Source of the DNA: a virus
Length of the DNA stretch: 37,507 nt
IMG/VR virus record: IMGVR_UViG_3300040751_004487
Span: 1 to 37,507 of that record
Direction: 5' to 3' (one strand)
A program made the translations under genes and the position numbers. Shown here one piece after another: positions 14,421 through 31,684 of this stretch. Numbering within the stretch: the first letter of the stretch is position 1; every line of letters starts with the position of its first letter. The notes beneath the pieces are model-generated. The model was given only the letters and a program-made list of their open reading frames with translations. It ran no database searches and was not told the origin of the DNA.

Positions 14421-14968
14421 GCTGCTACTCCTTCTACTTTACTTTCAAGATATTTAACCATACTTTCTGGTGTGGTTTCAACATATGGATCTTCGTCTGT
14501 GCCATCGTTGTTGATGCCAGGTTCTTGCCACCATTGCTCAACAACGCCATCATTTAGTACACACATGTAACGCCAAGAACGGTTGCCAAATCCTAAATGG
14601 TTTTTACCAATAAGCATTCCCATAAAGCGAGTAAAGTTACCTGAACCGTCTGGGATTACTTTTACATTTTCGAGTCCTTGCTGTTTAGACCAAGCATTCA
14701 TTACAAAAGCATCGTTTACACTAATGCAATATACTTCATCAATTCCTGCGTTACGAATGCGGTTATAGTTTTTTTCAAATCCTGGCAACTGATAGGTTGA
14801 ACAAGTTGGTGTAAACGCGCCTGGTAGACTAAACAGTACTACACGCCGGCCTGCAAACATTTCATTACTTGTTACCTGTTCCCATCGAAAAGGGTTAGGT
14901 CCTTCAATAGATTCGTCACGAACTCGAGTTTGAAACGTAACATTTGGTGGACGGAATCCTTCAATCAT
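14417..14968 (-). CDS. peroxiredoxin (Prx5/PrxII type)
   Basis: A 183-residue thiol peroxidase reducing H2O2 or organic peroxides. The peroxidatic motif PGAFTPTCS has C56 in the classic PxxxTxxC arrangement. NRSWRYMCVLNDG near residue 130 is the conserved Arg-containing region. There is no fused glutaredoxin domain, and the reductant would come from host or phage glutaredoxin/thioredoxin. AGGAG precedes the start. It is embedded between dCMP hydroxymethylase and SH3-like genes. Protection against oxidative stress in infected cells is the likely role. The AOX gene and several oxygenases elsewhere in the window make redox control a theme. Confidence 0.92.
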   Translation of the reverse strand: MIEGFRPPNVTFQTRVRDESIEGPNPFRWEQVTSNEMFAGRRVVLFSLPGAFTPTCSTYQLPGFEKNYNRIRNAGIDEVYCISVNDAFVMNAWSKQQGLENVKVIPDGSGNFTRFMGMLIGKNHLGFGNRSWRYMCVLNDGVVEQWWQEPGINNDGTDEDPYVETTPESMVKYLESKVEGVAA

Positions 14969-17755: not shown

Positions 17756-18979
17756 TTAGACTTTTTTGTAGATAACAGTTGCGTTAGCTCCTCCAAATCC
17801 AAAGGAATTCGTTATAACCGAGTCTAGTTCGGCATCAAATGATTCGCGGGCAATAGGGAACTCCGCGGCGCGTGGGTCGATTTCGTCAATGTTTGCCGAT
17901 CCTGCAATGAAGCTTTGATTCATCATCAAAATAGAGAAAATTGACTCCCAAACCCCCGCAGAACCCAAACCGTGTCCTGTCAACGATTTAGTTGAGCTTA
18001 TTGGCGGTATATCAGCGCCGTGGAATGCCGCTTTAATAGCGTTCAATTCAGTTATATCGCCCACTGGAGTTGATGTTCCATGGGCATTCATATAGTCAGG
18101 CAATTTAGTATAACCTTTACGTCGAGCATCGCTCATAGCATTACTCATACATCGAACTGCACCTTCTCCTGAAGGATGAGCCATATCGTATCCATCTGAC
18201 GTAGCACCATATCCTGCAATCTCAGCGTAAATCTTTGCACCACGAGCAATTGCAGTATCATAATCCTCAAGGATTAAAGCACCACTACCTTCTCCTACAA
18301 CAAATCCATCACGGTCTTTATCATATGCCCGAGATGCTTTTGATGGGTTATCGTTGTATTTTGAAGAAAGCGCACGCAATGCGTCAAGCATACCAACCAT
18401 TGCATAATGATCGTTATCAGAACCACCTACAATCATTCGCTTTTGATAACCGTGAGCAATTGTTCGGTATGCTTCTCCGATGCAATGAAGACTTGAAGAA
18501 CACGCTGAAGAAATGGTAAATCCTTCGCCATAAATTCTCAGTGCCTTAGTAATATTTGCTGACGTTGTTGAGTTCATTGTTTTAAATACAATGGTAGGAT
18601 CCCGCGCAGGACCTTTACGAACAACTACGTCTTCAGCATGTTGCTGCCAATCAGGAGATGCTGCACCAGATCCAAAGTAACACCCAGTGTCAGGATTACT
18701 TACTTCATTAGGTTTTAACCCAGCGTCTTCAATTGCTGATACACAAGATAAGTAACCTAATGCCGCAGTAGGACCCATCCATCTATAATCTTTTGGATGT
18801 ACAAGATCGGCGGGATGAAAGTCTAGACTACCTGAGACATGACATTTCAATCCTATAGCGGCATAGTCAGAATTATACTTAATTCCTGAGTTGCCTTCTC
18901 TTAGGTTTTTTGTAACAGTTTCAAGATCGTTTCCGATGGGAGAGCGAATGCCCATCCCTGTCACGACTACTCTATTCAA
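17756..18979 (-). CDS. fabB: 3-oxoacyl-ACP synthase (KAS I/FabB-like)
   Basis: A 407-residue thiolase-fold condensing enzyme that elongates acyl-ACP with malonyl-ACP. The catalytic triad is intact: C160 in SSACSSSLHCIG, H300 in NAHGTSTPVGD and H336 in STKSLTGHGLGSAG (with K331). The Cys-loop and C-terminal NSFGFGGANAT are closest to FabB/KAS I. Full length, with no frameshift. It is the second gene behind the early promoter at 19367-19395, so it should act early. No acyl carrier protein or other fatty-acid gene is visible, so it would work with host ACP. It may redirect membrane lipid synthesis or feed the oxidative operon upstream (inference). Confidence 0.95.
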   Translation of the reverse strand: MNRVVVTGMGIRSPIGNDLETVTKNLREGNSGIKYNSDYAAIGLKCHVSGSLDFHPADLVHPKDYRWMGPTAALGYLSCVSAIEDAGLKPNEVSNPDTGCYFGSGAASPDWQQHAEDVVVRKGPARDPTIVFKTMNSTTSANITKALRIYGEGFTISSACSSSLHCIGEAYRTIAHGYQKRMIVGGSDNDHYAMVGMLDALRALSSKYNDNPSKASRAYDKDRDGFVVGEGSGALILEDYDTAIARGAKIYAEIAGYGATSDGYDMAHPSGEGAVRCMSNAMSDARRKGYTKLPDYMNAHGTSTPVGDITELNAIKAAFHGADIPPISSTKSLTGHGLGSAGVWESIFSILMMNQSFIAGSANIDEIDPRAAEFPIARESFDAELDSVITNSFGFGGANATVIYKKV

Positions 18980-19419: not shown

Positions 19420-19704
19420 TTATTTCATATTTTTTTCACGTTCCGCATCTTCTTTCTCAATTACACCTTTGAGTTCAGCAATAAGTTCTTCCGCGAGCTC
19501 AACCTGCCTTAACGTAATTCTATGCGGAGTGTTAGGAAACAGAAACGGTAAAAATGCGTGGGTATATCCAGTGATTGCGTTAACTAAACCAAATGTGCTC
19601 AATTTTATAGCAAACCACATATGCTGAAAATACCCAGACCTTACTTCATGCAAATGCTCAGTATTAATCAAATACCCATATCTGCCCAAATTACCAAATT
19701 TCAT
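19420..19704 (-). CDS. small membrane protein, DUF6356-like, 94 aa
   Basis: A 94-residue protein: HLHEVRSGYFQHMWFAIKLS, a hydrophobic segment, FLPFLFPNTPHRIT, then a charged amphipathic tail. It resembles DUF6356-type small membrane proteins and is a paralogue of the neighbouring 72-aa gene (shared H-x-x-x-x-GYF-x-H pattern and xxHAxxPF). The start at 19704 has GAGG upstream and lies one base from the previous stop. Function is unknown. Confidence 0.7.
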   Translation of the reverse strand: MKFGNLGRYGYLINTEHLHEVRSGYFQHMWFAIKLSTFGLVNAITGYTHAFLPFLFPNTPHRITLRQVELAEELIAELKGVIEKEDAEREKNMK

Positions 19705-19705
19705 A

Positions 19706-19924
19706 TCAAGCCTCGTGGTGTGCGAAGGTTTCCTCAACCAAGCTCGCCAGTTTCTTCGCCGCATTCATAGATGCTTTCTCTAAAGCAAATGGGAAAATGG
19801 CATGGATTGAGCTTGTTACAAATACTGCGACTGACCAAACGACCATGTTAAGTCCAATCTTAATGTGGCCGAAGTATCCGCCGCCAGCACCTTCTTTATG
19901 TAAATGTGTAGTTAATGTAGTCAT
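19706..19924 (-). CDS. small membrane protein, DUF6356-like, 72 aa
   Basis: A 72-residue protein with HLHKEGAGGGYFGHIKIGLNM, one clear transmembrane stretch (about 24-45), SIHAIFPFALEKAS and a short helical tail. It is paralogous to the 94-aa gene just downstream. AAAGGAG precedes the start. The pair closes the oxidative-tailoring operon. Confidence 0.7.
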   Translation of the reverse strand: MTTLTTHLHKEGAGGGYFGHIKIGLNMVVWSVAVFVTSSIHAIFPFALEKASMNAAKKLASLVEETFAHHEA

Positions 19925-19941: not shown

Positions 19942-20691
19942 TTAGTATCCGATTATGCCCACGTTAGCAGGCAAGCGGTCTCTGACTTTTATTTTCATCC
20001 AATTGAACCCAGTTGTCATACCGCTCTCAATTGAAATAGCAAATGGCGAACTATTTATTATCGCCTCCTTTAGAAAATCAGTTTTAATCACAGTCCAAAT
20101 ATCTTTGTAAGGTTCTTGGACTTGGTTAACGACTTTGTTTCTATTTAATATATATGAGATATTGTGGTCTGACAAATTGGTTATTTCTTCATCAGTCAAA
20201 TCAATAGCGTTATGCCTCTTACGTAATACCTCAAAGATTCTAGTGTTTTCAGGATCTATATAAGTAAAGTTAATTTCGTTTGATATTATTTGCAGACCGC
20301 GGATACAAAACAGTATTTCTCTTAGATCCATGTGAGTGAATACACTATTTGCGAACGACATGTCATATGATAAAGAATTAATTGTAAGAGCGCCAAGGAA
20401 TCCATTGAAACCTGGAAACTGTTCGTTTTTATTTCCTTGAGGATTGTATGTTTGATGGTGGCGATTCCAGTAAATCGTATTAGCATTTGGAAATTCTTCA
20501 AGCAATTCGTTTAAAGCATTTTTGCTAACATCCATTGAGGTATATTTTTCGGGTAGGATTTTTCCATCACTAAAGTGAATAAGGTTACCCCTGTTGCCAC
20601 CGAAGTCTAATATCGTTTCATTTTTGTAATCAACAAACTGAGTAAATATTTTAAATGTGTTAACTCGTTTGAATATATCATATTGATTCAT
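19942..20691 (-). CDS. putative SAM-dependent methyltransferase, 249 aa
   Basis: A 249-residue class I methyltransferase-like protein: ILDFGGNRGNL (27-37) is the glycine-rich SAM motif I, and YTSMDVSKNALNEL (about 50-63) has the acidic residue for the ribose. MSFANSVFTHM is a motif-IV-type strand (usual D replaced). The C-terminal half is unique. Its ATG follows the stop of the 81-aa gene directly. Substrate is unknown. In this operon it may methylate a product of the halogenase and P450 group (inference). Confidence 0.7.
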   Translation of the reverse strand: MNQYDIFKRVNTFKIFTQFVDYKNETILDFGGNRGNLIHFSDGKILPEKYTSMDVSKNALNELLEEFPNANTIYWNRHHQTYNPQGNKNEQFPGFNGFLGALTINSLSYDMSFANSVFTHMDLREILFCIRGLQIISNEINFTYIDPENTRIFEVLRKRHNAIDLTDEEITNLSDHNISYILNRNKVVNQVQEPYKDIWTVIKTDFLKEAIINSSPFAISIESGMTTGFNWMKIKVRDRLPANVGIIGY

Positions 20692-20937
20692 TTACCATAA
20701 AACCCCTGGTTGGAGATCTTTCCATTTCATATCAGGGAATGCACTTGAATACTTTCTTTCAAGAAATAATAATACAAGATAAAGATCGCTCACAAACGGC
20801 ATAAAATAAAACACATATCTTTCAACAATATTACATCTATTTATAGCACCACCAATACATCCTAATGGATTAGCAATTCTTTCTTTCTCGAGTACGTATG
20901 CTTTTATCACAAAACTAATTAATATCAAATATGTCAT
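20692..20937 (-). CDS. small hydrophobic protein, 81 aa
   Basis: An 81-residue protein with hydrophobic stretches at both ends of a Cys/Gly/Asn-rich centre (NPLGCIGGAINRCNIVE), ending ...PDMKWKDLQPGVLW. The start at 20937 overlaps the dioxygenase gene by 23 bases. Unrecognised. Its position between two enzyme genes with a stop/start junction (TAA-ATG) supports it being real. It contains a perfect TATAAATA (20838-20845). Confidence 0.5.
   Translation of the reverse strand: MTYLILISFVIKAYVLEKERIANPLGCIGGAINRCNIVERYVFYFMPFVSDLYLVLLFLERKYSSAFPDMKWKDLQPGVLW
20838..20845 (-). promoter_or_regulatory. possible internal late promoter
   Basis: TATAAATA on the minus strand is the exact T4 late consensus, inside the 81-aa gene and 147 bases before the methyltransferase. 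Coding location lowers confidence. Confidence 0.3.
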
Positions 20938-21424
20938 GTTCTTTACCTTCAATGCAATCTAAAACTTCTTCGTATGAAATGTCGTTTGCAGTAAGTCTAA
21001 ATAAAACTCTAGTGTCTTCAGTTTTTACAGAGTGATATTGCGTTACATCAAGTAATGCGCATTTGTAGTTTATATATATGTCGTCATCAAAACATATTGG
21101 GCCTGAACCTTCTAATACAATATTAAGTGCGATAGTAGCGCCAACATCTTTATGTTTATTTAAATCTGATCCCGCTGCTTGTCTATAATATCTTGGCTTT
21201 ACTTCTGCAGCAATCATATATGATAAGTTTTTTGCTATCTTATGCGCTAATACACAATCTTCGGCATCTGCTAAACGAATCACTTCCATTTCATCAAGAG
21301 ATCTTGTTATAACTCCATTTGATGCAGTATATATTTTTGCCTTATGGACATTATCATAAAACTCTTTAATTAATTTTTCAACAACATATTCAGAAACTGG
21401 TAGATGGGTTAAGTACTTATTCAT
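20915..21424 (-). CDS. putative 2OG-Fe(II) oxygenase, 169 aa
   Basis: A 169-residue protein whose middle fits the 2-oxoglutarate oxygenase core: H91-x-D93 in LNKHKDVGATIALNIVL, the distal His (H131) in DVTQYHSV, then VLFRLT with R139 or R143 for 2OG. It is small for the family, close to the minimal double-stranded beta-helix. It follows another such enzyme directly (ATGA overlap). It would hydroxylate an unknown substrate. Confidence 0.65.
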   Translation of the reverse strand: MNKYLTHLPVSEYVVEKLIKEFYDNVHKAKIYTASNGVITRSLDEMEVIRLADAEDCVLAHKIAKNLSYMIAAEVKPRYYRQAAGSDLNKHKDVGATIALNIVLEGSGPICFDDDIYINYKCALLDVTQYHSVKTEDTRVLFRLTANDISYEEVLDCIEGKEHDIFDIN

Positions 21425-22005
21425 GGCAATATATCTACAACAAAATGAATACGTTCTATATCACTCGCATTTAGCGCAGTATGGTAACCTTTGTTAGTAT
21501 GCGCAAAAGTCCATTGTTCTAATGGAAGATGATATGATTCGTCTTCAATAATCATTAAACAACCATCTGCAGTTTGCAATGGATAATGAACTCTTGGAAT
21601 TGGATCTATATGCCAATTCATGCAAGTACGAGGAGCTGATTTAAGAAGTCGTGCTCTTCCTACATTAAATTTTGTTTTAAGCGTGTTAAAGATATTATCA
21701 AAACCAGTATCAACAAAGACATCACATAGTTCCCAATCATAAACACTACTTGGCTTCATTGGAATGCGGATATCACCCTCAGGAGTGTGTCGAATAAAGA
21801 AATCGCTATTACCCTTATCGGCAAAATAACCAGCACCAAAATTTACGTCATGTGTATAACCCGGCGCGGCGTTTAAACATATTTGTGCTGAGCTTAAAGG
21901 ATGCGATGGTTGCAACCATGTAACTTCTTCAGAAGCTTCTAGCATATTTAATTCATCTAACAATCCGTGAAATCGTGGTAATAGTATTTTTTCAAAATAT
22001 TTCAT
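21421..22005 (-). CDS. aspartyl/asparaginyl beta-hydroxylase-like 2OG oxygenase
   Basis: A 194-residue protein with MNWHIDPIPRVHYPLQT carrying H132-x-D134, HLPLEQWTFAHTNKGYHTALN with distal H175, and R185 in ERIHFVV. This arrangement matches the aspartyl/asparaginyl beta-hydroxylase family of Fe(II)/2OG oxygenases. Phage members are known, but substrates are not. The start overlaps the radical SAM gene stop (ATGA), and its end overlaps the second oxygenase. Confidence 0.82.
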   Translation of the reverse strand: MKYFEKILLPRFHGLLDELNMLEASEEVTWLQPSHPLSSAQICLNAAPGYTHDVNFGAGYFADKGNSDFFIRHTPEGDIRIPMKPSSVYDWELCDVFVDTGFDNIFNTLKTKFNVGRARLLKSAPRTCMNWHIDPIPRVHYPLQTADGCLMIIEDESYHLPLEQWTFAHTNKGYHTALNASDIERIHFVVDILP

Positions 22006-23519
22006 AATTCTAAAAATCTTTCTACTTTATCATAATAATTTTTTTGCATATAGGCGTGAGCACGCTCTTTAATTGCTGGATCTATAAACAATTCTGTGAA
22101 CGTCATTTTTCTAAGCTCTTCAAATTCAAAGCCTAAACATTGATAAAACATAAGGAAGAACGTTGCAACCTTAATATCATCAATAAAGTTTTCTTGTAGG
22201 TTCTTTACGTATTCAACCGCTTCTTTACTAGACCAATCATCGCTGATCCATTGGTTTGTTGCAGTATCAACTTGATATCCAAACTGTTCGGCATTACGAG
22301 ACAACTCAGACGCCGTGCCAAGTTCAAGCGGGCTAAAGGAATACGAATCAAACAAATGGTTGTGAGCAAATAAGTCCTGAGTCCATTCGTTCATTGTATC
22401 TTCGTTATCGTGCGGAAGACCTGCAATAAAACTACCGTATACGCTTAGTGAATCGTTAAAGGCTTCTTTGCTTGCCGCAATTGTTTCAAAGATCTTTTCT
22501 TTAGGACAGCTTTTACCAATTCCTTTTGCCGCTTCATAGTTCAAGGATTCAATACCAAGGAACCATGCACAACAATTAATTCTTCTTAATAAATCAATTT
22601 GCTCAGGAAAGCGAGCAATTAAATCAATACGTATGAATGCCGAGAACTGTAATTGTTCAGGTAATGCCAATTCGTCAATAGCATCAGCAATCGCTTGAAG
22701 TTTAACTGTTTGCTCATTAAACGTATCATCAATAATAACATATTTCGTTGTACCGTATAGATCGTAATTTTGTTTGAGTTCGTGCTTTATCCGTTCCTTT
22801 TCTCGTAAGAACGAGTCGTCGCCTTTACGTTTACCAATCAAAGGATAGGCGCAAAACTTGCACTTAAATATACAACCGCGTCCGAACTCAATTCCCATTG
22901 CATCTTGCGGATTCCAAAAATCCTCGGGAACATAATTGATATATGAGTTACGGAAGTCGAACTGATTACCCTTTTGGTCAAAGTCAATTACTTTACATTG
23001 AGATCCATACGCAATATTATAGTTTAATTTTGTATCGTTTACAAGATGGTTGGTAATATGCTCCGCCATTGCTTCACCCATACCAACGACATAATAATCA
23101 ATACATTCTTGAACTTGTGGTCTACGACGAGTATCCATCATACCACCGTATACTGTTTTAGCACCTTTTGAACGAATATGATCTGTCATAGATTTAATAT
23201 CTTCATCCTGAGTTGGCCAGTGCCATAGAATATTCATTCGAGCACCGTCGCGTGTATGACGTTTGGTATAGACGTCATCTGACCTTCTCATAAACAGAGT
23301 TGAACTAAACCCAACCCATAAAGTATTTGGTCCCATCAATTTATCAAGGACTTCGTTTATCATACCTTTTTTGATCCAATGAGTAAAGTTGTTTAGTACA
23401 AACACACTGTATCCAAGGTTTCTCATATGAGACGCAATCTTATAACCGCCAACAGCACGTGCTACATTAAACACGGGATCGCTACCTTCGGTCATAATTA
23501 TAATATCGTATGTTTTCAT
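22002..23519 (-). CDS. B12-binding-type radical SAM enzyme, 505 aa
   Basis: A 505-residue radical SAM protein. The cluster-binding motif is GRGCIFKCKFCAYP (C216, C220, C223; CxxxCxxC). The N-terminal ~165 residues have the Rossmann-like layout of cobalamin-binding domains (VFNVARAVGGYKIASHMRNLGY; the DxHxxG His of the base-on type is not clear). FLGIESLNYEAAKGIGK and SFIAGLPHDNEDT are typical of the radical-SAM barrel of MiaB-like/B12 proteins. Such enzymes methylate or rearrange unactivated carbons. It sits between the adenylation domain and two dioxygenases in one overlapping operon. Substrate unknown. Confidence 0.88.
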   Translation of the reverse strand: MKTYDIIIMTEGSDPVFNVARAVGGYKIASHMRNLGYSVFVLNNFTHWIKKGMINEVLDKLMGPNTLWVGFSSTLFMRRSDDVYTKRHTRDGARMNILWHWPTQDEDIKSMTDHIRSKGAKTVYGGMMDTRRRPQVQECIDYYVVGMGEAMAEHITNHLVNDTKLNYNIAYGSQCKVIDFDQKGNQFDFRNSYINYVPEDFWNPQDAMGIEFGRGCIFKCKFCAYPLIGKRKGDDSFLREKERIKHELKQNYDLYGTTKYVIIDDTFNEQTVKLQAIADAIDELALPEQLQFSAFIRIDLIARFPEQIDLLRRINCCAWFLGIESLNYEAAKGIGKSCPKEKIFETIAASKEAFNDSLSVYGSFIAGLPHDNEDTMNEWTQDLFAHNHLFDSYSFSPLELGTASELSRNAEQFGYQVDTATNQWISDDWSSKEAVEYVKNLQENFIDDIKVATFFLMFYQCLGFEFEELRKMTFTELFIDPAIKERAHAYMQKNYYDKVERFLEL

Positions 23520-23520
23520 T

Positions 23521-24291
23521 TTAACCTTTTCTTGGATTACTAAAATCTACAGGAGTGCCGGCGCGGCCAGTATACCAAAGGCATCCAAAATAGTCAACAA
23601 CAACTTGATCCTTTGTATTGAACCAATCCTCATACACACAAGAATCACCTTTTACCCAAAGACAATTGTTTTCATCTACTTTCCATTCGCAATGGAATAT
23701 ATTTCCAAGAATAGTAGAATTTGAAGGGCATTTTGTTTTTGCTGCAATTACATCGAACACACTTCGAAATTTGTGTAATATTGCATTTACTCCAATTTCA
23801 GTCATTCCCCAAATAGTAATTACAGTAGCTCCACGTTCTACAAACGCTTCAATTATATCCCACGTAACTGGTTCAGATCCAACTAAAAATACTTTATCTT
23901 TTAAATTAAGATCTTTAAAACCTTTTGTTTTCATCACAGCTAACGCTTGCTTTGGTGTTAAGTGCGTATGTGTATATTTATGGGCTATCTGCACATAGCG
24001 ATATGGATTAAATTTTTCAAGGTCAATAGTTGCTCCGACCATTAAGCCTGGAATTGTTTGAGCAAACAACGCACCTGCTCTTTGTGGATTCAAACAAGTA
24101 TAGATTACTGAATCGCCAGTAATACCTTGTGTCTCAATAGCAGCGTGAGAATTTGATATTGATTTATACGGAGGTTGAAATATTTCCTTTGGTTCTCCAG
24201 ATGAACCGCTTGTTTTAATTATAATGCCTTTCTCAGCAGCATCACGGAAATAATCCTCATCATAATTATCGTACCAAGTTCTTAGCGGCAT
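23521..24291 (-). CDS. mini AMP-binding (ANL) adenylation domain, 256 aa
   Basis: A 256-residue protein with the signature motifs of acyl-CoA synthetase and NRPS adenylation enzymes: KTSGSSGEPKEI (26-37), WGMTEIG (161-167), and a degenerate A7 near FGCLWYTGRAG (235-245). Family members are ~500 residues. This protein lacks the first ~150 residues and the whole C-terminal domain with the A10 Lys. It may form only an acyl-adenylate, bind an acyl group, or need a partner. It lies one base from the radical SAM gene and three bases from the halogenase gene. Confidence 0.85.
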   Translation of the reverse strand: MPLRTWYDNYDEDYFRDAAEKGIIIKTSGSSGEPKEIFQPPYKSISNSHAAIETQGITGDSVIYTCLNPQRAGALFAQTIPGLMVGATIDLEKFNPYRYVQIAHKYTHTHLTPKQALAVMKTKGFKDLNLKDKVFLVGSEPVTWDIIEAFVERGATVITIWGMTEIGVNAILHKFRSVFDVIAAKTKCPSNSTILGNIFHCEWKVDENNCLWVKGDSCVYEDWFNTKDQVVVDYFGCLWYTGRAGTPVDFSNPRKG

Positions 24292-24294
24292 GTA

Positions 24295-25464
24295 TCACCC
24301 AAAGTAATTAAAACCAAACTCACGGTCTACGTATCGTAATACGTGATGTCCCATAAATCTTTCGGTTATTGTTTTAAACATCTGATCTTCCTGATCTGCT
24401 ACATATCTTTGCAATACGTCAGTTTCTTTTAAATTATTTGAGGCTCGGTCTTTTGCCCAATCCCAAAACGCATTTTCGTAAATAGAACCGCCGTGATAAA
24501 TTAAGTTAATAAGATCTTCAACTGCGCGGTAATTTAATATGCACAACTCGTTTGCTTCATCTTCATTAATTTCGCCTCTAATGTAATCCGACAAAATCTG
24601 AGTATTTTTAACAGCCATATAAAGTGAGTTAGCACTCATAGGCTCGAAGAATACCGCACGATTACCATTCTTGAGCATACGCCCATTGACTGTCTTTTTA
24701 CAATAATATGGTTTGATTGGAAATGTTCTGAAGTCCTCAATATCATCCTCGGTTGCATTCGTAATACGAATAAGCTCTTCAATTGCCATTTGCTTATCGG
24801 CAAAATTGTTGTTATACAGTAATCCGTGCGAGGTGCGATGCTGTAACGGAATCACAAACATCCACCCATATTTATGAGCAACGTGTCTTGTAAATCCAAA
24901 ATCAGATGGCTCAGGATCGTCGTATACTAACGCAGAGTTCAGAATTAAATTGCATTCTTTATAATCAGTAAAGTCTTCAGGTCTGCCACGGCAATCAATC
25001 ACATAGTCAAAAACATTTAGTTCTTTATTGATTGTAAGTGCTACTCCAGAATGATCCCACATAGGTTGCTCACCAACTGTACCTTCCAATAAAGTATAGT
25101 TTGGATATAATTTTTTTAATCTATCCAATCCCATTTTTGCAAAGTCACGAGCATCAAAATGAACGGCATGATAACCAGTTTGAAATGGAAAGATAATGTC
25201 CTTTTCACGCCAATCAATATAGTGTGTACCATATTTTGTTGTGCTATTTAATTCCTCAGCCTCTGTGGCAAATATAAAGTCAAACGCTTGCCCAATCGCA
25301 AAAGTTACTTCTGACGTTGTGCTTTCTCCTACTCCAAGAATTGGAATGGTTGGATCAAAAACGTGGGTCATTTCAATATCAATCCCACGGTTTTTGAAAT
25401 CTTTAAGAATACAGCCTGTTGTTAGTATGCCTGCGCTTCCTGCTCCTAGTACTGCAATCTTCAT
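24295..25464 (-). CDS. flavin-dependent halogenase-like protein (divergent)
   Basis: A 389-residue protein of the tryptophan-halogenase superfamily. GAGSAGILTTG (7-17) binds FAD, LGVGESTTSEV (43-53) is the second family signature, K77 aligns with the catalytic lysine of PrnA (NSTTKYGTHYIDW), and GWMFVIPLQHRT (199-210) corresponds to WxWxIP but with Phe at the second Trp. The later FEPMSANSLYMAV (272-284) corresponds to EPLESTGLY, where the catalytic Glu is replaced by Ser. Family length is ~500 residues, so it is also short. It may halogenate, or it may be a flavin monooxygenase. A marine cyanophage halogenase (VirX1) is a precedent. Confidence 0.88.
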   Translation of the reverse strand: MKIAVLGAGSAGILTTGCILKDFKNRGIDIEMTHVFDPTIPILGVGESTTSEVTFAIGQAFDFIFATEAEELNSTTKYGTHYIDWREKDIIFPFQTGYHAVHFDARDFAKMGLDRLKKLYPNYTLLEGTVGEQPMWDHSGVALTINKELNVFDYVIDCRGRPEDFTDYKECNLILNSALVYDDPEPSDFGFTRHVAHKYGWMFVIPLQHRTSHGLLYNNNFADKQMAIEELIRITNATEDDIEDFRTFPIKPYYCKKTVNGRMLKNGNRAVFFEPMSANSLYMAVKNTQILSDYIRGEINEDEANELCILNYRAVEDLINLIYHGGSIYENAFWDWAKDRASNNLKETDVLQRYVADQEDQMFKTITERFMGHHVLRYVDREFGFNYFG

Positions 25465-25976
25465 TCTTCACCTCTTACTTCAAGATATCTTTCTTTATTT
25501 AATTTCCATATATTTTGGTTAACGCCAAATACTTCTTCATTACTTATATGCTCAACAAGACCATTCTTTTCGAGTATATAGTATAACTTATTTAATCTTA
25601 ACATGCTTCCGCTTGCATCATTATCAGTATTGGTCGTGATATAAATTGGTTCTCCATTAACTAAATCAATAGCTATTGGAAGATGGTAATAAAACATCCA
25701 ACAATTCATATGATTACGAGTTAATCCACCAGGTCTTGAATATAGCTGTGCACCACGATATAAAGCTCTATAACCATCTTTAAATTCGTGTAAACCACTT
25801 ATGCCAACAATTTTATCGTCTACATAAGTTGCAAACCAAATACCACGATTTTCTATTGTTTCAAAGAAATTCATCGAGCAAAAAGAATTGTTATTTTTAA
25901 ATCCAAGCTTATCGCACTCACGGATAAATTCTAACAGTGCCTCGTTTGCTCCAAACAAGAGTTCGGTTTTAATCAT
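25461..25976 (-). CDS. GNAT-like N-acetyltransferase, putative, 171 aa
   Basis: A 171-residue protein with a GNAT-like layout: IWFATYVDDKIVGISGLHEF (about 46-65) resembles the central beta strands, and YRALYRGAQLYSRPGG and LRLNKLYYILEKNGL follow. No clear acetyl-CoA loop (Q/RxxGxG/A) is visible, so the assignment is tentative. It overlaps the P450 stop (ATGA) and the halogenase start (ATGA), so all three are tightly coupled. Confidence 0.5.
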   Translation of the reverse strand: MIKTELLFGANEALLEFIRECDKLGFKNNNSFCSMNFFETIENRGIWFATYVDDKIVGISGLHEFKDGYRALYRGAQLYSRPGGLTRNHMNCWMFYYHLPIAIDLVNGEPIYITTNTDNDASGSMLRLNKLYYILEKNGLVEHISNEEVFGVNQNIWKLNKERYLEVRGEE

Positions 25977-27220
25977 GCGAATCTCATTTCAAGATCTTTC
26001 CATACGGTTGTTGATCCAAACATTGCTGGCAATCTTTCAGGTTCTTTTGTGATTTCAAATTCATCATAACGATCTAATAACTCGTTTACAATAATTTCCA
26101 TAAAATGTTTTACAATAAAATCGCCAGTACAATGGTGTGGACCGTATGCTAGTGTTACAGGGTTTGGTTCGTCATCTCGTTCTAATTTAAATTCAAGCGG
26201 ATCTTTGTAGTATTTTGGATCGCGGTTTGCGCCATATGTATATAATAAAATACGAGAACCAAAATCAATTTTATAGCCATGATAATCAACTGTCTCAGGT
26301 ACATCACGAATGCCTCCTTTTAATGGAGCAAGACGCAATGCTTCACGAGCAAACTTAGGAACAAGTTCTCGGTTAGACTTAACTCTTTTTGTAATATCAG
26401 GATATTTCGCAAGACACATTGTGAGGTATTGGTATAAAGACAATGCGAAGGTTGGAATTACAACAGTCCATAGCGATTGAATAAACATGTATCCCATCAT
26501 TTTTGGGCGATCGTTATATTCCCATTGCTTATCGCTTAATGTATAAGTCATATTAATCATAGTGTCTTGATCTTTACCTTCAAGCTCATAGTAATCAAGT
26601 GCCTCATTTACAATACGAGAAAACATACTATAGAATTCTGTTGTCTCAGCCACCGGCTTGTCATAATCAAATTCAGGATTAAAATTTGAGAATACATTGC
26701 CAGGTCTCATCCATTCGTGAAACCCGTCCTTAACGTGGTCTTCAGTAACGTCAAGTTCATCCCATGGAAATTGGATCATTTGTATTTGAGTATCGGTGGC
26801 AACTCTACCAATGATATCGTACGCCTTAAATGGAACGCCTTTCTCCACTTTATTCAAATACTTATTTAAATTATTTTTAAAGTATTGAGTATATAAAGGG
26901 GCGTTGCGTTTTGCCCAGTCCAAGCTGTGCTTTTTCGCAAGGTGGTGGTGAGGCCCTTCACGCAAAGTCAACGCATATCCTGCACGCCAAACTCCACCCA
27001 AAGGTGTTGGATCAAACGGTGCAGGTGATGTGGTTGCAAGACTGAAAGTTTCGTTCATTCTGGACGCTTCTTTTAGTCGGTCCATTGAAAATACAATCCA
27101 GTGTTTGTATATAGGATGCCAATAGAATCCACGCGGTTCGTTCTCAAACAGGAACTCAGCGTGCTCATCCATTTTATACAGAAATTCTGGATTTACAATA
27201 TCAAAATCAGTCTTTTTCAT
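25973..27220 (-). CDS. cytochrome P450
   Basis: A 415-residue cytosolic bacterial-size P450. The haem-thiolate motif is AYGPHHCTGDF (C364), the K-helix ExxR is E293-A-L-R296, and the meander has a PERF-like DPLEFKLERD. The I-helix region (SLWTVVIPTFALSLYQYL) lacks the usual acid-alcohol pair (Asp/Glu-Thr), which normally helps cleave O2. It could use peroxide or substrate-assisted activation, or be a non-standard P450. No N-terminal membrane anchor. No ferredoxin or reductase gene is nearby. It heads the oxidative operon, with only an 18-base A/T gap to the upstream gene and no clear Shine-Dalgarno. P450s are rare in phages. Confidence 0.94.
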   Translation of the reverse strand: MKKTDFDIVNPEFLYKMDEHAEFLFENEPRGFYWHPIYKHWIVFSMDRLKEASRMNETFSLATTSPAPFDPTPLGGVWRAGYALTLREGPHHHLAKKHSLDWAKRNAPLYTQYFKNNLNKYLNKVEKGVPFKAYDIIGRVATDTQIQMIQFPWDELDVTEDHVKDGFHEWMRPGNVFSNFNPEFDYDKPVAETTEFYSMFSRIVNEALDYYELEGKDQDTMINMTYTLSDKQWEYNDRPKMMGYMFIQSLWTVVIPTFALSLYQYLTMCLAKYPDITKRVKSNRELVPKFAREALRLAPLKGGIRDVPETVDYHGYKIDFGSRILLYTYGANRDPKYYKDPLEFKLERDDEPNPVTLAYGPHHCTGDFIVKHFMEIIVNELLDRYDEFEITKEPERLPAMFGSTTVWKDLEMRFA

Positions 27221-27238: not shown

Positions 27239-27541
27239 TTAAAGGTCAGCTGTTTCAGGCGAAAAAGAAATTGTCCAGCCTTGCCCGGCAAGTGAATCTT
27301 TAACTCCTTGCGAAACGTTAGCCATCATTCCTTTATATTCAGCAATAATTGAAGTATCCCATTGCGTTGTCATTGTAAATGTTCCGCTGGATTCAGTAAG
27401 AGTTGATGTTCTTGTACCAGCTTCATCTGAATTATTTAAAAAATCAATAACAGGCGTTGGCAATAAATTGCGGATGGTATTAACCGCGGTTGCGCCATCT
27501 GTTCCTGCCGGTGGTGTAAAAGTAACAGTTTGTGTGACCAT
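27239..27541 (-). CDS. unknown late protein, 100 aa
   Basis: A 100-residue Thr-rich protein (TVTFTPPAGTDG; TSTLTESSGTFTMTTQWDTSI) of beta type. It may be a structural or decoration protein. The second ATG (27541) is chosen because GGAGG is 7 bases upstream. The first (27547) is too close. It is the first gene behind the late box at 27563-27570 and is followed by the P450 operon. Confidence 0.65.
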   Translation of the reverse strand: MVTQTVTFTPPAGTDGATAVNTIRNLLPTPVIDFLNNSDEAGTRTSTLTESSGTFTMTTQWDTSIIAEYKGMMANVSQGVKDSLAGQGWTISFSPETADL

Positions 27542-27561
27542 AGTCATTCCTCCATTTTTGT

Positions 27562-29322
27562 TTATTTATTTTGAAAGAACAAGCTAAAGTTCTTGGATAT
27601 AAAATGAGTTATAACCGCGTGATTTTCATACGATTCTTGTTTCATTTTAGATAAAGCAATGTTCCATGCCGTCGTTCCTTCGTTAAAACTATCTATTCCT
27701 TGATACATGTTACGGCTATGCCATGCCGACGGCAATCTATAAATCAAAACATTATTTTGTATTACTTTATATGAAAAGATTGCTTCGTTATCATATCCAA
27801 AGGATTTGCGCACCTGCGGCGGATACATACTGAACTCATCTTGTTTAAGTTCTTTCATCATTTCAATTGTGTCGTCAATATCTCCAAAGTAATCTAGCTG
27901 TTCTATAACTTGTTTACTTGCAACGATAACGCCAGTATTATAACCACGATTCTTTTTAGTATCTAAACCTTGTTCTGTACACATTGCGTGCGCATTCCAA
28001 TACTTTGCTTGTGGGTTACGAAAATCTTTTTTGTAATGCGCAAAGTATACTGCGTCTTCATTTATTTTTAAATCTTTTTTAGTTTCGTAAAAAACGCAAA
28101 TAGCATGGCCACAAGGAGTATAGTCAAACACACTAATATGATCGTGGAATACACAATCAAAATCTACATATGCAACGTGGTCGTATTCCTTTGATACCTT
28201 TTCAAGTAACCATATTTTATATAGGTTAATGACATCGTATTCCGATAGATCAGGAAACCGTTTATAAAAAGCTTCGTATTCTTCATCCCTACCAAAATGT
28301 TTATAGTCTGCACCAATTCCTTTTGCATAATCACGATGGTTATCGAGCAACCTATCTCGGTACTGATTCATTAATCTTTTTGCGATAGCACTTTTATTTT
28401 CAGGATTGTCCTTGTGAGATTGTGGGTTATCAAGGCGGTCTGTTGGAATATCAATATGTAATGAAAATATCGCCTTTGTCTTGTCTTTAAAAAATGTACC
28501 AAACTGTTTATTAATAAAGTGAATTATATATTCTTCTTGGGCAGCCATCTTTGGAAAGTCTGAATAAATTACGTGCCACTTTTCCTCTAACAAAACGTAA
28601 GGGACTTTGTATTTTTCCATGATATATGAAAAGATGCTTTCGTTGTTCGGATAGTAAGACATTGTAATAATACTAAAAGCAATTGGCGAATCATCAAGCA
28701 TACCATCTTTCATCTTTTCGATGATATTAATAACTTCTCGAGCACGCTCAATAAACTTTATTTGATTAATGTGTTCGGATTTGCCAATCAAAATACCAGT
28801 ATTCATTACATGGTTATCTTGTCCGTTTAACAGATCTTTTGTGATATGGTACTTAAGTGTAGGAGATCTTAATCCAATCGTATCAAATAATAACTCTTCT
28901 TTATCTTTTGTTATAATATCATCGTCTTGATGTTTAACGTGAATACCTTTACTTAAATCGTTTTCTTCAAATACGTTTAATTCTGTATTAAACAAAACAT
29001 CCATGTCAACATACATAACTTCGTCGTATTCTTTTGCAAGCTCCGCCATCAAATGATGCTTGTATATATTAACCTTTGCAAATTCAAGTTCGCAATCAAT
29101 ATCAAAGTCTTTCATTGTATTACGATATAGAATAAAGTCTACACCTATTGAATCCGCATAATCTTTTTTATTTGAAACGAGACGATCAAAGTATTCATCA
29201 GTAGTTTTTTGTTTTGCTATATCGGCATCACGTGTTGCAACCGCATCCCCATCATACTTATGAGAATCTTTTGTTTCTGCGCGGTCAATGTCGTCATATG
29301 TTGTAAAGATTACTCTTTTCAT
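27562..29322 (-). CDS. two-domain GT-A glycosyltransferase, 586 aa
   Basis: A 586-residue protein made of two homologous GT-A domains. Domain 1 (about 1-290) has YVDMDVLF (D106, D108) and NTGILIG (about 174-180). Domain 2 (about 320-586) has YVDFDCVF (D387, D389) and NTGVIVA. Each also has a [VI]NxYKxxLxxxxxKEYDxVxYVD run and a HFIxKxF near its end. It is probably a fusion after gene duplication, giving two active sites. It lies with a methyltransferase, a second glycosyltransferase and a radical SAM enzyme downstream of the fibre genes, so protein or surface glycosylation is a plausible role. Confidence 0.88.
   Translation of the reverse strand: MKRVIFTTYDDIDRAETKDSHKYDGDAVATRDADIAKQKTTDEYFDRLVSNKKDYADSIGVDFILYRNTMKDFDIDCELEFAKVNIYKHHLMAELAKEYDEVMYVDMDVLFNTELNVFEENDLSKGIHVKHQDDDIITKDKEELLFDTIGLRSPTLKYHITKDLLNGQDNHVMNTGILIGKSEHINQIKFIERAREVINIIEKMKDGMLDDSPIAFSIITMSYYPNNESIFSYIMEKYKVPYVLLEEKWHVIYSDFPKMAAQEEYIIHFINKQFGTFFKDKTKAIFSLHIDIPTDRLDNPQSHKDNPENKSAIAKRLMNQYRDRLLDNHRDYAKGIGADYKHFGRDEEYEAFYKRFPDLSEYDVINLYKIWLLEKVSKEYDHVAYVDFDCVFHDHISVFDYTPCGHAICVFYETKKDLKINEDAVYFAHYKKDFRNPQAKYWNAHAMCTEQGLDTKKNRGYNTGVIVASKQVIEQLDYFGDIDDTIEMMKELKQDEFSMYPPQVRKSFGYDNEAIFSYKVIQNNVLIYRLPSAWHSRNMYQGIDSFNEGTTAWNIALSKMKQESYENHAVITHFISKNFSLFFQNK
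27563..27570 (-). promoter_or_regulatory. late promoter box before the 100-aa gene
   Basis: AATAAATA on the minus strand matches NATAAATA, overlaps the stop codon of the 586-aa transferase (27562-27564), and lies 22 bases before the 100-aa gene start. It would also feed the P450 operon. Confidence 0.55.
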
Positions 29323-29963
29323 ATTCCTATCACCATATATCTGTCATAGTCCGTTGTTTCAAATTTACCTGAATAGTATACTCGAGTTAAGTTTAAACTT
29401 TTTTCAAAATCTTCAAGTGAATCGTGAGTATTAATATGGCTTTGTACTGAATGGTAATTGTTACCCTGAAAGCAAATAACAGAATTTGGTTTTTTCATTG
29501 CTATCATCAGTCTAATATCTTCCGCTTCCATATGCTCACAACTTGTATTAATAATTATATCACACTTTACAATATTGTCAAATATCCAATCCTCGGCGTC
29601 TTCATTAACGAAATGGGTATTTTCTGTCGGAGTACCTTTAAGCAATTTTCTCGAAAATTCTTTGGCATAAGGATCAGAATCTACGTTATGAATATGAACC
29701 TTTTCGCCGACCTGTTCTCGTAGCATCAGACTCGTGTATCCATACCAGGATCCAAGAATACAAATATTATAAAGATTCTTTTTAGGAATAAAGGGAATAA
29801 GTTTTTCAATTAACCATTCCTTGCTTTTTGTTTGAGATTCGTTAACCGAATTCATTACATCAAAAGCTCGATACAAGTCAACGTCAGGATCATACTTTGA
29901 CTCGATATATATGTTCTCAATTGTACTTAGTGCATTTTTATAAAGTAACTCACGATAATTCAT
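29319..29963 (-). CDS. class I SAM methyltransferase, 214 aa
   Basis: A 214-residue protein. The SAM-binding motif is ICILGSWYGYTSL (67-79), and HNVDSDPYAKEFS (about 92-104) holds the acidic residue at the end of strand 2. CDIIINTSCEHM (about 134-145) is the motif-IV-type strand. The target is unknown. It overlaps the 199-aa glycosyltransferase by 14 bases and the two-domain transferase by 4 bases. A sugar or protein O- or N-methyltransferase is possible. Confidence 0.8.
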   Translation of the reverse strand: MNYRELLYKNALSTIENIYIESKYDPDVDLYRAFDVMNSVNESQTKSKEWLIEKLIPFIPKKNLYNICILGSWYGYTSLMLREQVGEKVHIHNVDSDPYAKEFSRKLLKGTPTENTHFVNEDAEDWIFDNIVKCDIIINTSCEHMEAEDIRLMIAMKKPNSVICFQGNNYHSVQSHINTHDSLEDFEKSLNLTRVYYSGKFETTDYDRYMVIGI

Positions 29964-30549
29964 AGCTTATCCCATTATACATATCAATTGGTGCATCCCA
30001 TTCAGAAGGATCCGCAACACTATTTACTAAACCGTGTTCAAAAGTATTGAACGGAATCTTTTCGTGAACAAGAAATCTATCTATGCCTGGATATTTGCGC
30101 ATCCAATAATCACGGTTTGTCATAAACAAATCCCAGACATGAGATTGCTCACCTGCGGTCCAAGTAATTACAGAACTATTTATGTGGACATCGTAAGCGT
30201 GCGGTGCCATATACAAATCATCTTTCCAATAATCTTTTAAGATTGTTAACCCATCCCATTTTATAAACTCAGAAGGATCTCTTTTAATATCCATGTCTAA
30301 ATCAAAATAAAGGCATTTACCTTCTACAGGAAAATCTTTACTGAACATCGCAAGTTTATTCCACCAATACCTGAGGCTAGGCTTTTTAAAACACGCAATG
30401 GTTTCTATTTCAATATCGGCAGGATCTTCGGTGTAGCAAAGATATCTTGCTGTTGGATAGTATTGTTTTAAAGTTGATGCTAATTTATTTACATGTTTGG
30501 CTGTATACTTATTACCATGTTTTACGAATATAATATTATTTGGCATCAT
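29950..30549 (-). CDS. GT-A glycosyltransferase, 199 aa
   Basis: A 199-residue small GT-A protein with YFDLDMDI (D83-x-D85-x-D87), preceded by SLRYWWNKLAMFSKDF, a layout common to phage and marine bacterial transferases. Only one domain. It overlaps the radical SAM gene by 14 bases. Acceptor unknown. Confidence 0.8.
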   Translation of the reverse strand: MMPNNIIFVKHGNKYTAKHVNKLASTLKQYYPTARYLCYTEDPADIEIETIACFKKPSLRYWWNKLAMFSKDFPVEGKCLYFDLDMDIKRDPSEFIKWDGLTILKDYWKDDLYMAPHAYDVHINSSVITWTAGEQSHVWDLFMTNRDYWMRKYPGIDRFLVHEKIPFNTFEHGLVNSVADPSEWDAPIDMYNGISYELS

Positions 30550-31684
30550 GGCGATCTCTCAACTGATGTGTTTTGTAAATACGATTACTGCAGTTTCTTA
30601 CGCATTGTGGAACCGGATTGTCGCCTTTCATGCTGTTAGGTAACGTTTTAGTATACCATTCTGAGTTAATAATTTCAGATAATGGTGTATGGAATAGATT
30701 ATACTTTTTTAGATTGTTATTGTATTCATCTATGTATATGTCATTCCTATCCATATCAGGTTTATGCGTCGGGTCAACTCGACCTTGATAATGAGCATTG
30801 GCATGGAAACAACAAGGCAAAACTTGACCGTCAGGATTAACAACTATTTCGTTTCGAGGTTTTGCCCATCTACAAACGATTTCACTTGATAATTCCGCTA
30901 CTTGTTTAACCTGTGAAGGTTTAAGCTCGTGTATTTCTATCTTTTGCCCATCATTAACCTTTTCAGATGGAACATATGCGCCCATAACTCTTGGGTTAGT
31001 TAGTACTTTAGGATTTGCTGGTTCTAAATATTCTTTTTCGTTATTTACGTTATAAAAGTATCTTTTGTTATCAACTGTAGATTTTCCAGTAAACCTATCT
31101 GATATAACAAACTCGTGCCCTGTTGAACCTTTACTTTTTACTAATTCTAATATATCGTCTTTATAATCTTGGTTGTGTTTAAATAAAATAGTTTGAGATC
31201 TTGCGACGGCACGTGTCTGCGCAAAAATTGACATATTATCAAGTACTTTCTCTAAGCTTGTAAACCTTCTGTACTTTTCGTGCATTGCTTGGTCTATACC
31301 GTCAATATCAAATATAACTTCTAACCGCTCACCACCCATAACACCAAAGTCCCACCAAAAATCGGAACTACGGATACTTCCGTTTGTGTCAATTGAAATT
31401 TGAGTAAAAAAAGTATTATCTATAATATACTTAACGATATCATATATGTCTTTGTTCATCATTGGGTCGCCCCAAGTGCCACAAAGTTTAAACCTACTAA
31501 TATTTTTTAATTCTTTAGGAGGGAACGCGGTTTTAAATTCTTCAAGGCTCCATTGAACTAATGGTAACCAATCAACCTTTCCAAGACCGCCGCGTTGTTC
31601 TGTCCTGTGACATTGTGGGCATCCTGCGTTACAATAAGTAGACAAGTCCACAAATACACGTAGGCCATTAAGATCCCATAACAT
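30536..31684 (-). CDS. radical SAM/SPASM enzyme, 382 aa
   Basis: A 382-residue radical SAM protein. The cluster motif YCNAGCPQCHR has C18, C22 and C25. The C-terminal part has CRWAKPRNEIVVNPDGQVLPCC and, near the end, PQCVRNCSNR, the Cys pattern of a SPASM or twitch domain with auxiliary Fe-S clusters. SPASM enzymes often modify peptides or sugars. It lies directly downstream of the fibre cassette and upstream of glycosyltransferase and methyltransferase genes in the same direction. Confidence 0.9.
   Translation of the reverse strand: MLWDLNGLRVFVDLSTYCNAGCPQCHRTEQRGGLGKVDWLPLVQWSLEEFKTAFPPKELKNISRFKLCGTWGDPMMNKDIYDIVKYIIDNTFFTQISIDTNGSIRSSDFWWDFGVMGGERLEVIFDIDGIDQAMHEKYRRFTSLEKVLDNMSIFAQTRAVARSQTILFKHNQDYKDDILELVKSKGSTGHEFVISDRFTGKSTVDNKRYFYNVNNEKEYLEPANPKVLTNPRVMGAYVPSEKVNDGQKIEIHELKPSQVKQVAELSSEIVCRWAKPRNEIVVNPDGQVLPCCFHANAHYQGRVDPTHKPDMDRNDIYIDEYNNNLKKYNLFHTPLSEIINSEWYTKTLPNSMKGDNPVPQCVRNCSNRIYKTHQLRDRHDAK

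Follow-up and report, generated by a model that had tools for sequence, protein, structure and literature searches.

A conserved cassette of predicted oxidative tailoring enzymes in the fibre-gene island of marine T4-like phages

Described phage systems and the cassette locus

Phages are known to encode individual metabolic genes and a small number of short pathways, a baseline against which the cassette described here, with about ten tailoring enzymes moving intact between dissimilar phage lineages, should be viewed. Fibre-island glycan genes are known from pelagimyophages, and the host-recognition island of pelagimyophages and cyanomyophages resembles the cassette site, being a variable region of T4-like marine phages beside the tail fibres, with glycosyltransferase (GT) genes, radical SAM cassettes and LPS-type genes (PMC7029224, available part). 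Unlike the cassette, that island is described in the same part of the source with no mention of a P450 or a halogenase, and it is placed there between VrlC and gp14, whereas the cassette of one of the lineages recognized here, lineage A, has fibre genes on one side and the gp42/gp44/gp45 region on the other.

A halogenase and a P450 are known from phages, too. An iodinating cyanophage flavin-dependent halogenase was reportedly described by Gkotsi et al. in 2019. Another account gives flavin-dependent halogenases in 20 of 153 cyanophages (PMC10452541); they belong to the same family as the cassette halogenase, PHROG 2928, with relatives in 55 cultured-phage records. The cassette enzyme differs from them in being only 24-36% identical among the matches listed, in its WxFxIP motif and in being part of a co-inherited multi-enzyme block. 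Mycobacterium phage Adler encodes a cytochrome P450 (Lamb 2019, cited in PMC9405906), which is like the cassette P450 in lacking an encoded redox partner. The latter differs, however, by its Pro-Thr I-helix, by being embedded in a pathway and by showing no tblastn relationship to the Adler enzyme in 50,697 cultured-phage records, the collection in which the cassette P450 (by tblastn), radical SAM enzyme and ANL adenylation protein all had no relatives. The initial annotation knew of no described phage with such a combination of genes, and the point stands: neither these records nor the available literature, searched for a phage combining a P450, a halogenase and a radical SAM enzyme, yielded one.

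The window analysed is the whole 37,507-nt stretch of the record IMGVR_UViG_3300040751_004487. The nine ORFs predicted at 27220-19942 on the minus strand are all present and intact, as initially annotated; comparative data extend the block by three small genes, i.e. o27239 at one end and two DUF6356 genes at the 3' end, so that the nine-gene limits first drawn proved too narrow. The features are as follows:

27239-27547, minus strand: o27239, 102 aa, ferredoxin-like fold, first cassette gene in lineages A and B
25973-27220, minus strand: cytochrome P450, 415 aa (Pfam p450, over cut-off)
25461-25976, minus strand: GNAT-fold N-acyltransferase-like protein, 171 aa (AF2 and Foldseek)
24295-25464, minus strand: flavin-dependent (tryptophan-type) halogenase, 389 aa (Pfam/PHROG)
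23521-24291, minus strand: minimal ANL adenylation core, 256 aa (Pfam AMP-binding and motifs)
22002-23519, minus strand: class-B-like radical SAM enzyme, 505 aa (Pfam Radical_SAM)
21421-22005, minus strand: OxA, aspartyl/asparaginyl-hydroxylase-like 2OG/Fe(II) oxygenase (Pfam PF05118, over cut-off)
20915-21424, minus strand: OxB, small 2OG/Fe(II)-oxygenase-like protein (HxD...H...R pattern)
20692-20937, minus strand: HP86, small hydrophobic protein, not generally conserved
19942-20691, minus strand: SAM-dependent methyltransferase, MT (Pfam Methyltransf_12 under cut-off, and motif)
19706-19924, minus strand: DUF6356 small hydrophobic protein 1 (Pfam PF19883, over cut-off)
19420-19704, minus strand: DUF6356 small hydrophobic protein 2 (Pfam PF19883, 7e-10; conserved start at 19704)
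27562-31684, minus strand: upstream backbone outside the cassette, comprising a GT-like gene (27562-29322), a methyltransferase (29319-29963), a GT-like gene (29950-30549) and a radical SAM/SPASM gene (30536-31684)

Gene order, co-inheritance and genomic setting

The nine genes had been taken as a single translation-coupled unit on account of their close junctions, which range from -23 to +18 bases with a median of 0. The remaining junctions of the window have a median of 6 bases (74% of at most 20 bases), and since the rest of the window is thus also tightly packed, spacing is weak evidence for an operon and the conclusion drawn from it alone was dropped. The unit itself is upheld by the conserved gene order, which is the strong evidence for a predicted operon. 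This order, P450-GNAT-(halogenase)-ANL-radical SAM-OxA-OxB-methyltransferase, is found again in some 20 further viral records, of which about ten are distinct and which belong to at least three phage lineages. The cassette of about ten enzyme genes is thus common to several marine T4-like phages that are related only distantly. HP86, initially counted as a member, is not generally conserved, having a 54% match in one record and a 29% match in one cluster of near-identical records.

Between lineages, the cassette proteins share 54-85% identity, while other reciprocal best hits number just 2-8, with medians mostly at 25-50% identity, and the cassette therefore travels as a unit. The distances of the P450, GNAT, ANL, radical SAM and MT proteins correlate with each other (Mantel p ≤0.005), and dN/dS of the cassette enzymes is 0.06-0.19, with the exception of the fast-evolving MT (about 0.3). 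The comparisons thus show the cassette, as read from its predicted proteins, to be one conserved unit with intact catalytic motifs, purifying selection and block transfer. Three complete cassettes lack both the halogenase and the DUF6356 genes and one lacks OxA/OxB, which means that not every step is essential; the halogenase is also missing from one partial relative and, by distance comparison, is swapped between cassettes more freely than the other genes. This freer exchange, the hypervariability of the region and the loss of the OxB iron site in four fused copies are what a passive accumulation of unrelated genes would have in its favour, but it is contradicted by the order kept across lineages, the low dN/dS, the invariant active sites, the fusion protein and the co-inheritance, and is hardly credible. 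As for the two conditions that would have refuted the initial annotation, the genes do recur together and no frame-broken copies were seen, the loss of iron ligands in the fused OxB copy of the four near-relatives being one qualification.

The cassette sits in a hypervariable island next to fibre and glycosyltransferase genes. The upstream fibre/GT/radical SAM backbone is found next to fibre genes in some 45 records, the majority without the P450 cassette, and related phages carry at the island site other sets of 2OG oxygenases, FA_desaturase, TauD, radical SAM or B12-rSAM enzymes; the comparison shows the island to be a site of interchangeable predicted oxidative batteries. A gp44-type clamp loader is present in the window and in records G001-G003, G016 and G019. 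The initial view of a coherent oxidative-tailoring unit within a T4-like phage is supported; with fibre and GT neighbours and T4 replication genes, the locus falls among T4-like marine fibre/tailoring islands. The fibre genes had also been described as carrying late promoters, and this was not borne out: the T4 late-promoter motif TATAAATA has 4 occurrences versus 4.6 expected, i.e. a chance level, and the candidate was rejected. In lineage C, the genes upstream of the cassette represent UDP-sugar dehydrogenase, DegT, hexapeptide transferase and PP-loop families, a setting that counts in favour of the surface proposal made below. The cassette has other neighbours in lineage C than in lineages A and B, however, so that something other than the fibre may be the target.

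Lineage A further possesses a thymidylate-synthase-family enzyme, which we take to resemble the T4 gp42 dCMP hydroxymethylase, as well as a dCMP deaminase and a cytosine methyltransferase. Known base hypermodification involves enzymes of the GNAT and radical SAM types, and the cassette might accordingly act on hydroxymethylcytosine in the phage DNA. This is very improbable, however, as the gp42-like enzyme was unmatched in the 91-kb lineage C record and the other B/C sequence examined, these records being incomplete, except for the short record 3300047453, no precedent is known for a P450 or a flavin halogenase in such modification, and the cassette is linked to fibre/sugar genes rather than to replication genes.

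Sequence motifs of the cassette proteins

The initial family assignments hold in Pfam for P450 (5e-12), Trp_halogenase (5e-30), AMP-binding (1e-12), Radical_SAM (7e-14) and Asp_Arg_Hydrox (1.5e-5). Among 20 P450 sequences, 72-100% identical, the motifs are without change, covering the haem Cys364, the ExxR (E293/R296) and YGPHHCTGD (20/20). Most P450s carry an acid-Thr pair in the I-helix; the cassette P450, with WTVVIPTF at the position placed by the distance to ExxR, has an invariant Pro256-Thr257 instead and thus departs from the monooxygenase pattern. CYP152 peroxygenases have an RP motif in the I-helix, and the CYP152 model matches 13/13 P450 members, far under its cut-off; assignment to these peroxygenases was rejected at 35.7 bits versus a cut-off of 600, with Ile-Pro found where Arg-Pro is expected. 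The P450 models matched come from natural-product pathways, and the profile matches include alkane hydroxylases. An encoded ferredoxin (PF00111) was not found in the cassette records.

The halogenase is matched by PHROG tryptophan halogenase at 8e-63 and keeps GAGSAG, Lys77 and Glu274 in 16/16 sequences, the latter two presumably equivalent to the catalytic Lys and the conserved Glu of PrnA; by its FAD, Lys and Glu motifs, it is a predicted flavin-dependent halogenase. Its WxWxIP motif is altered to WMFVIP in 16/16 sequences, the second Trp being Phe203, so that activity is not assured, although the change does not exclude the fold. The GNAT-like label is upheld in a different way, without any sequence-level family match, by an AlphaFold model (pLDDT 86) that matches GNAT acetyltransferases in Foldseek (probability 1.00, E about 1e-5); the gene is present in every cassette record examined.

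The ANL protein shares its core motifs with acyl-CoA ligases and NRPS A domains, keeping the phosphate loop, WGMTE, NTKD and the TGR hinge in 20 sequences; we take the motifs after the loop to be A5, A7 and A8. It differs from standard ANL enzymes in being cut down to 256 aa: the Pfam AMP-binding alignment spans positions 167-355 of 384, and all relatives are without the N-terminal third and the C-terminal lid with the catalytic Lys, the copies stopping just past the hinge motif. Classical adenylation is therefore doubtful. The best-matching model is a long-chain acyl-CoA ligase. As initially proposed, this is not a standard NRPS/PKS cluster; the carrier protein PF00550 is absent from the 15 cassette records (fragments), the same search being positive in 11/14 control genomes.

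The radical SAM enzyme has an invariant CxxxCxxC (20/20 sequences), a Rossmann-like N-terminal part and the domain layout of the PhpK/ladderane-type class B enzymes. Its best NCBIfam models are PhpK (1.6e-22) and ladderane B12/rSAM (8e-17), reaching 80 and 61 bits against cut-offs of 600 and 360, and the models matched include ladderane and hopanoid lipid enzymes, far under the curated cut-offs. The cobalamin dependence implied by its first description as B12-type would be putative: alignment to the B12/rSAM models extends into the N-terminal part, from residue 105, while Pfam B12-binding gives no match and no DxHxxG was seen. Unlike the PhpK/ladderane type, it is fused at the C-terminus to OxB in most relatives (11 records; about 670-690 aa), the two being separate genes in the window, and the closest cousin seen in cells shares 27% identity. 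Concerning the two 2OG oxygenases initially annotated, OxA keeps HxD and a distal H in the aligned copies; OxB has no Pfam match, and its assignment is backed by the HxD...H...R pattern in 14/18 copies, the fused copies of the four near-relatives mentioned above having lost the iron ligands. MT matches Methyltransf_12 at 1e-4 and carries DFGGNRGNL in 18 sequences. DUF6356 genes occur in all complete cassettes with the halogenase, protein 2 being 57-96% identical among relatives.

The small protein o27239 was found in IMG/VR only directly upstream of the cassette P450 (11/11 loci) and is absent from all cassette-less relatives sharing the same fibre/GT backbone. Its body is variable (39-50% identity) and evolves quickly (dN/dS 0.4), the C-terminal tail GWxI[ST]F[ST]PxTADL excepted, which is invariant. 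This tail, in a RiPP-like manner, or else a fibre protein could be what the cassette modifies. The exclusive association, the Trp, Ser/Thr, Pro and Asp preserved in the tail, the Asp/Asn hydroxylase family of OxA and matches of the radical SAM enzyme and P450 to the RiPP enzymes ApyD and ApyO would agree with this. The AF2 model is, however, a confidently folded ferredoxin-like domain (pLDDT 92; no Foldseek match below E 1e-3), unlike a leader-core peptide, and o27239 is missing from at least seven complete cassettes and from lineage C, which weakens it as the precursor expected in all members of a RiPP cluster. With the ANL left unexplained and no peptidase or exporter in the cassette, protein modification seems unlikely.

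Proposed function and cellular relatives

Our preferred, still tentative reading, to which we give somewhat less than an even chance, is that a single pathway modifies an acyl-type group by oxidation, halogenation and methylation and attaches it to a surface component. The mini-ANL would convert a carboxylate to acyl-AMP, and an amine would receive the acyl group by way of the GNAT-fold enzyme. Oxidation or methylation at carbon positions would fall to the P450, to OxA and to the radical SAM enzyme paired with OxB, while the halogenase would add a halogen. The methyltransferase would cap the product, and the DUF6356 proteins may tie the final steps to the membrane. The host would supply the reducing power, or else the P450 would work with peroxide. 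The product would be one unusual acyl or amino-acyl group fixed to a component made by the neighbouring glycosyltransferase genes, such as a phage fibre-linked glycan, or a host envelope glycan or lipid, the benefit being altered adsorption or exclusion of competing phages; the acyl-type substrate, the step order, the surface target and the benefit are all what we infer. A weak leaning towards acyl or lipid chemistry comes from the ANL, ladderane/hopanoid and alkane-hydroxylase matches, all far below curated cut-offs, as well as from the alternative desaturases and the halogenase-tied, membrane-type DUF6356 proteins. The cellular radical SAM cousin beside two PaaK-like ligases, described below, and the fibre-island glycan genes of pelagimyophages also speak for this reading. 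The presence of a halogenase suggests an aromatic rather than aliphatic substrate and counts against the acyl proposal.

A free diffusible molecule (a phage-encoded specialised metabolite such as a signal, siderophore or antimicrobial), with a host amino acid or fatty acid as precursor and no carrier protein involved, is possible, if rather doubtful. All the cassette enzyme types are typical tailoring enzymes, the P450 models point to natural-product pathways, and the 27% identical radical SAM cousin adjoins two PaaK-like ligases and a PLP decarboxylase in a gammaproteobacterial cluster; yet the block conserves neither a transporter nor a resistance gene nor a core scaffold enzyme, the gain for a lytic phage is not obvious, and the cassette is always set among fibre, GT and surface-type genes. 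Remodelling of the host's membrane lipids or O-chain in the course of infection, chiefly as a barrier to superinfection, is less probable still. For pelagimyophages, an alteration of the O-chain by phage-encoded GTs has been put forward (PMC7029224), and the co-occurrence of DUF6356 proteins with the halogenase, the desaturases among alternative island occupants and a KAS-type enzyme gene near the lineage A cassette would fit; the block, however, has no glycan-acting or lipid-headgroup enzyme, and this explanation overlaps the surface-acyl proposal to the extent that sequence cannot separate them.

In a more far-reaching reading, the cassette would be a phage-evolved specialised-metabolic pathway without cellular counterpart, a self-contained mobile unit making a halogenated, oxidised and methylated group with a minimal ANL core and no carrier proteins, o27239 possibly being a scaffold, and one of many interchangeable decorations diversifying the phage or host surface, comparable to bacterial serotype loci. 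We regard this as conceivable rather than likely. A conserved block of tailoring enzymes that passes intact between dissimilar lineages, and whose P450, radical SAM enzyme and ANL have no relatives in cultured phages, would imply that phages keep up a specialised chemistry of their own. The cassette in any case frames a testable question, i.e. what the oxidative batteries beside marine T4-like fibre genes produce, and it offers unusual enzymes, namely the Pro-Thr I-helix P450, the minimal ANL core and the radical SAM-oxygenase fusion.

Concerning cellular genomes, a search of 84,980 bacterial and archaeal genomes with narrow radical SAM patterns gave nothing, and the radical SAM and P450 profiles each matched 0/385 genomes in the class of a Puniceispirillum genome. 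Plasmids gave partial tblastn matches only, 23-28% for the radical SAM enzyme and 21-28% for the P450. The radical SAM profile matched 1/369 genomes in the class of a Litoricola genome and 1/245 in a Marinimicrobia phylum, the latter being a 335-kb contig with seemingly phage-like gene content. As all these profile searches used samples without an in-group positive control, absence is only suggestive. As regards host signals, the AOX relatives occur in records from alpha-, beta- and gammaproteobacteria alike, and the closest gp44 matches, at about 54%, come from phages infecting Stenotrophomonas and Methylophilales.

Composition and recurrence of the cassette

The nine genes that the initial annotation described as an oxidative tailoring operon are all present and intact according to an ORF check of the 37,507-base viral record, and profile searches (Pfam, PHROG, NCBIfam) agree with their family assignments. 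The GNAT-like protein gave no match in sequence searches; its label is backed by a predicted structure (pLDDT 86) that, in a structure search, resembles GNAT acetyltransferases. The junctions are close (-23 to +18 bases), but spacing is not taken here as proof of an operon because most of the window is nearly as tightly packed. The phage also has T4-type genes for a clamp loader, a clamp and dCMP metabolism.

The limits drawn around nine genes proved too narrow, the unit, as judged from the sequences, also comprising a small upstream gene and two DUF6356 genes:

27239-27547, minus strand: o27239, small protein
27220-19942, minus strand: the nine tailoring genes
19420-19924: two DUF6356 genes

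Three scans of IMG/VR and a fourth, profile-guided one, resting on short exact patterns and on records that are fragments, revealed the cassette in ~20 further records, i.e. ~10 distinct phages once near-identical ones are set aside. The genes thus recur together, and with all ORFs ordered their arrangement is P450-GNAT-(halogenase)-ANL-rSAM-OxA-OxB-MT-(DUF6356 x2), where ANL is the adenylation core, rSAM the radical SAM enzyme, OxA and OxB the 2OG/Fe(II)-oxygenase-like proteins and MT the methyltransferase. Among the 17 records intact from P450 to MT, the window included, P450, GNAT, ANL, rSAM and MT are present in all, OxA and OxB in 16 (missing from 3300048033), and the halogenase and DUF6356 genes in the same 14. 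The halogenase has been cleanly lost from 3300031974, leaving 4 bases between GNAT and ANL.

Phage halogenases (PMC10452541), a phage P450 (cited in PMC9405906) and radical SAM and glycosyltransferase (GT) genes of pelagimyophage islands (PMC7029224) are each known singly. The view that no described phage system has such a combination held: no relatives of the cassette P450, rSAM or ANL occurred in the cultured phages searched, and a literature search of incomplete coverage found no paper on P450, halogenase and radical SAM together in a phage.

Lineages and block transfer

Reciprocal best matches between contigs divide the phages into three lineages.

Phage lineages carrying the cassette
Lineage A: window, 3300040806, 3300048033
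Lineage B: 3300027833, 3300031519
Lineage C: 3300025617, 3300031974, 3300023115

Contigs of different lineages share only 2-8 matching genes outside the cassette, with a median identity mostly of 25-50%, whereas the cassette retains 73-83% (P450), 73-85% (halogenase) and 64-74% (rSAM); on these identities, it is transferred as a block. Pairwise distances of its enzymes correlate (Mantel), most weakly for the halogenase, which seems to have been exchanged more freely; between the window and 3300040806, identity is 95% for the halogenase and 92% for the ANL but 74-81% for their neighbours. By rough Nei-Gojobori estimates, with few pairs under saturation, most enzymes have a dN/dS of ~0.06-0.19, while MT reaches 0.3 and o27239 0.4.

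Condition of the enzymes and the small protein

The motifs of P450, radical SAM and halogenase are invariant and those of OxA and the ANL core nearly so. Some features are unusual: the ANL is a bare core with the lid missing, the halogenase reads WxFxIP, and the P450 I-helix has Pro-Thr where acid-Thr is expected, reminiscent of the CYP152 peroxygenases, although the score lies under the CYP152 family cut-off. No ferredoxin was found in the cassette-phage sequence searched, as reported for other viral P450s (PMC9405906), so the P450 would draw reducing power from the host or use peroxide. In 11 records the rSAM carries OxB as a C-terminal fusion; since the fused domain of four near-identical or close ones has lost its iron ligands, it may be structural there.

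In lineages A and B the gene for the ~100-residue o27239 immediately precedes that for the P450; it is missing from lineage C. When its alignment was used to scan IMG/VR, 11 relatives emerged, every one of them adjoining this P450; the upstream fibre/GT backbone is common to ~45 records, those without the cassette having no detectable copy. Its body is variable, its tail, GWxI[ST]F[ST]PxTADL, nearly invariant. A structural search returned no informative matches; the model predicts a confident ferredoxin-like fold (pLDDT 92), which argues against a classical precursor peptide.

Genomic setting and possible product

From sequence comparison, the site beside the fibre/GT/rSAM backbone (27562-31684) is a hot spot. 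In relatives it holds Asp/Asn-hydroxylase-like and TauD oxygenases, fatty-acid desaturases, B12-type rSAM, PP-loop enzymes and additional GNAT-like and DUF6356 proteins.

Alternative oxidative batteries at this site in relatives (numerous 2OG oxygenases, together with fatty-acid desaturases, TauD, B12-type rSAM, PP-loop enzymes)
L128: 9718-17688
L109: 9773-14634
L110, L123: downstream of the GT gene

The downstream ends of L110 and L123, by eye, carry a porin-like gene (~262 aa) with signal peptide and a heme-oxygenase-like gene (~120 aa). A 335-kb contig from a Marinimicrobia bin, read as phage from its gene content, has an rSAM cousin (29% identical) adjoining desaturase-like and GNAT-like genes and oxygenases. 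The closest cellular analogue found, on a gammaproteobacterial contig (L162, 7976-19866), combines six class-B-like rSAM genes, three with a ~200-aa partner, with two PaaK-like ligases and a PLP decarboxylase, and is possibly an undescribed biosynthetic cluster.

The cassette records searched, being fragments, yielded no carrier protein, in line with the initial view that this is not a standard NRPS/PKS cluster, and transporters and a conserved precursor are missing from the cassette; NRPS/PKS and classical RiPP pathways are therefore disfavoured. We tentatively prefer a pathway that decorates a surface component with an acyl-type group, because acyl/lipid leanings, weak but in one direction, combine with the fibre/GT setting: the ANL is acyl-CoA-ligase-like, the rSAM has matches of ladderane/hopanoid type and the P450 hits of alkane-hydroxylase type, desaturases are alternative occupants and the DUF6356 partners are hydrophobic. 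A free metabolite as the product is rather unlikely, and modification of a protein by these enzymes less probable still.

Further genes of the window and its relatives

Other genes of the window, all on the minus strand, are:

1300-1929: alternative oxidase (AOX, 1e-77)
1945-2391: Hsp20-like
14417-14968: peroxiredoxin-like
14986-15678: thymidylate-synthase-family protein
17756-18979: beta-ketoacyl-ACP synthase I/II-like, beside the cassette (lineage A)

No carrier protein to accompany the synthase was found in the sequence searched. The Hsp20-like and peroxiredoxin-like genes possibly have oxidative-stress functions. The 14986-15678 protein presumably resembles T4 gp42 dCMP hydroxymethylase, which suggests hydroxymethylcytosine DNA. 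Relatives of the AOX (65-79% identity) occur in marine proteobacterial records and on the phage-looking 335-kb contig (79%). Several SPASM/twitch-type radical SAM genes (370-465 aa) share a single phage island in 3300025617_000935 (L008, L067). Lineage B (3300027833_001471, 3300031519_004379) encodes, by eye, a ~683-aa protein of CHASE2/adenylate-cyclase-like look and a FecR-like protein, both unusual for phages.
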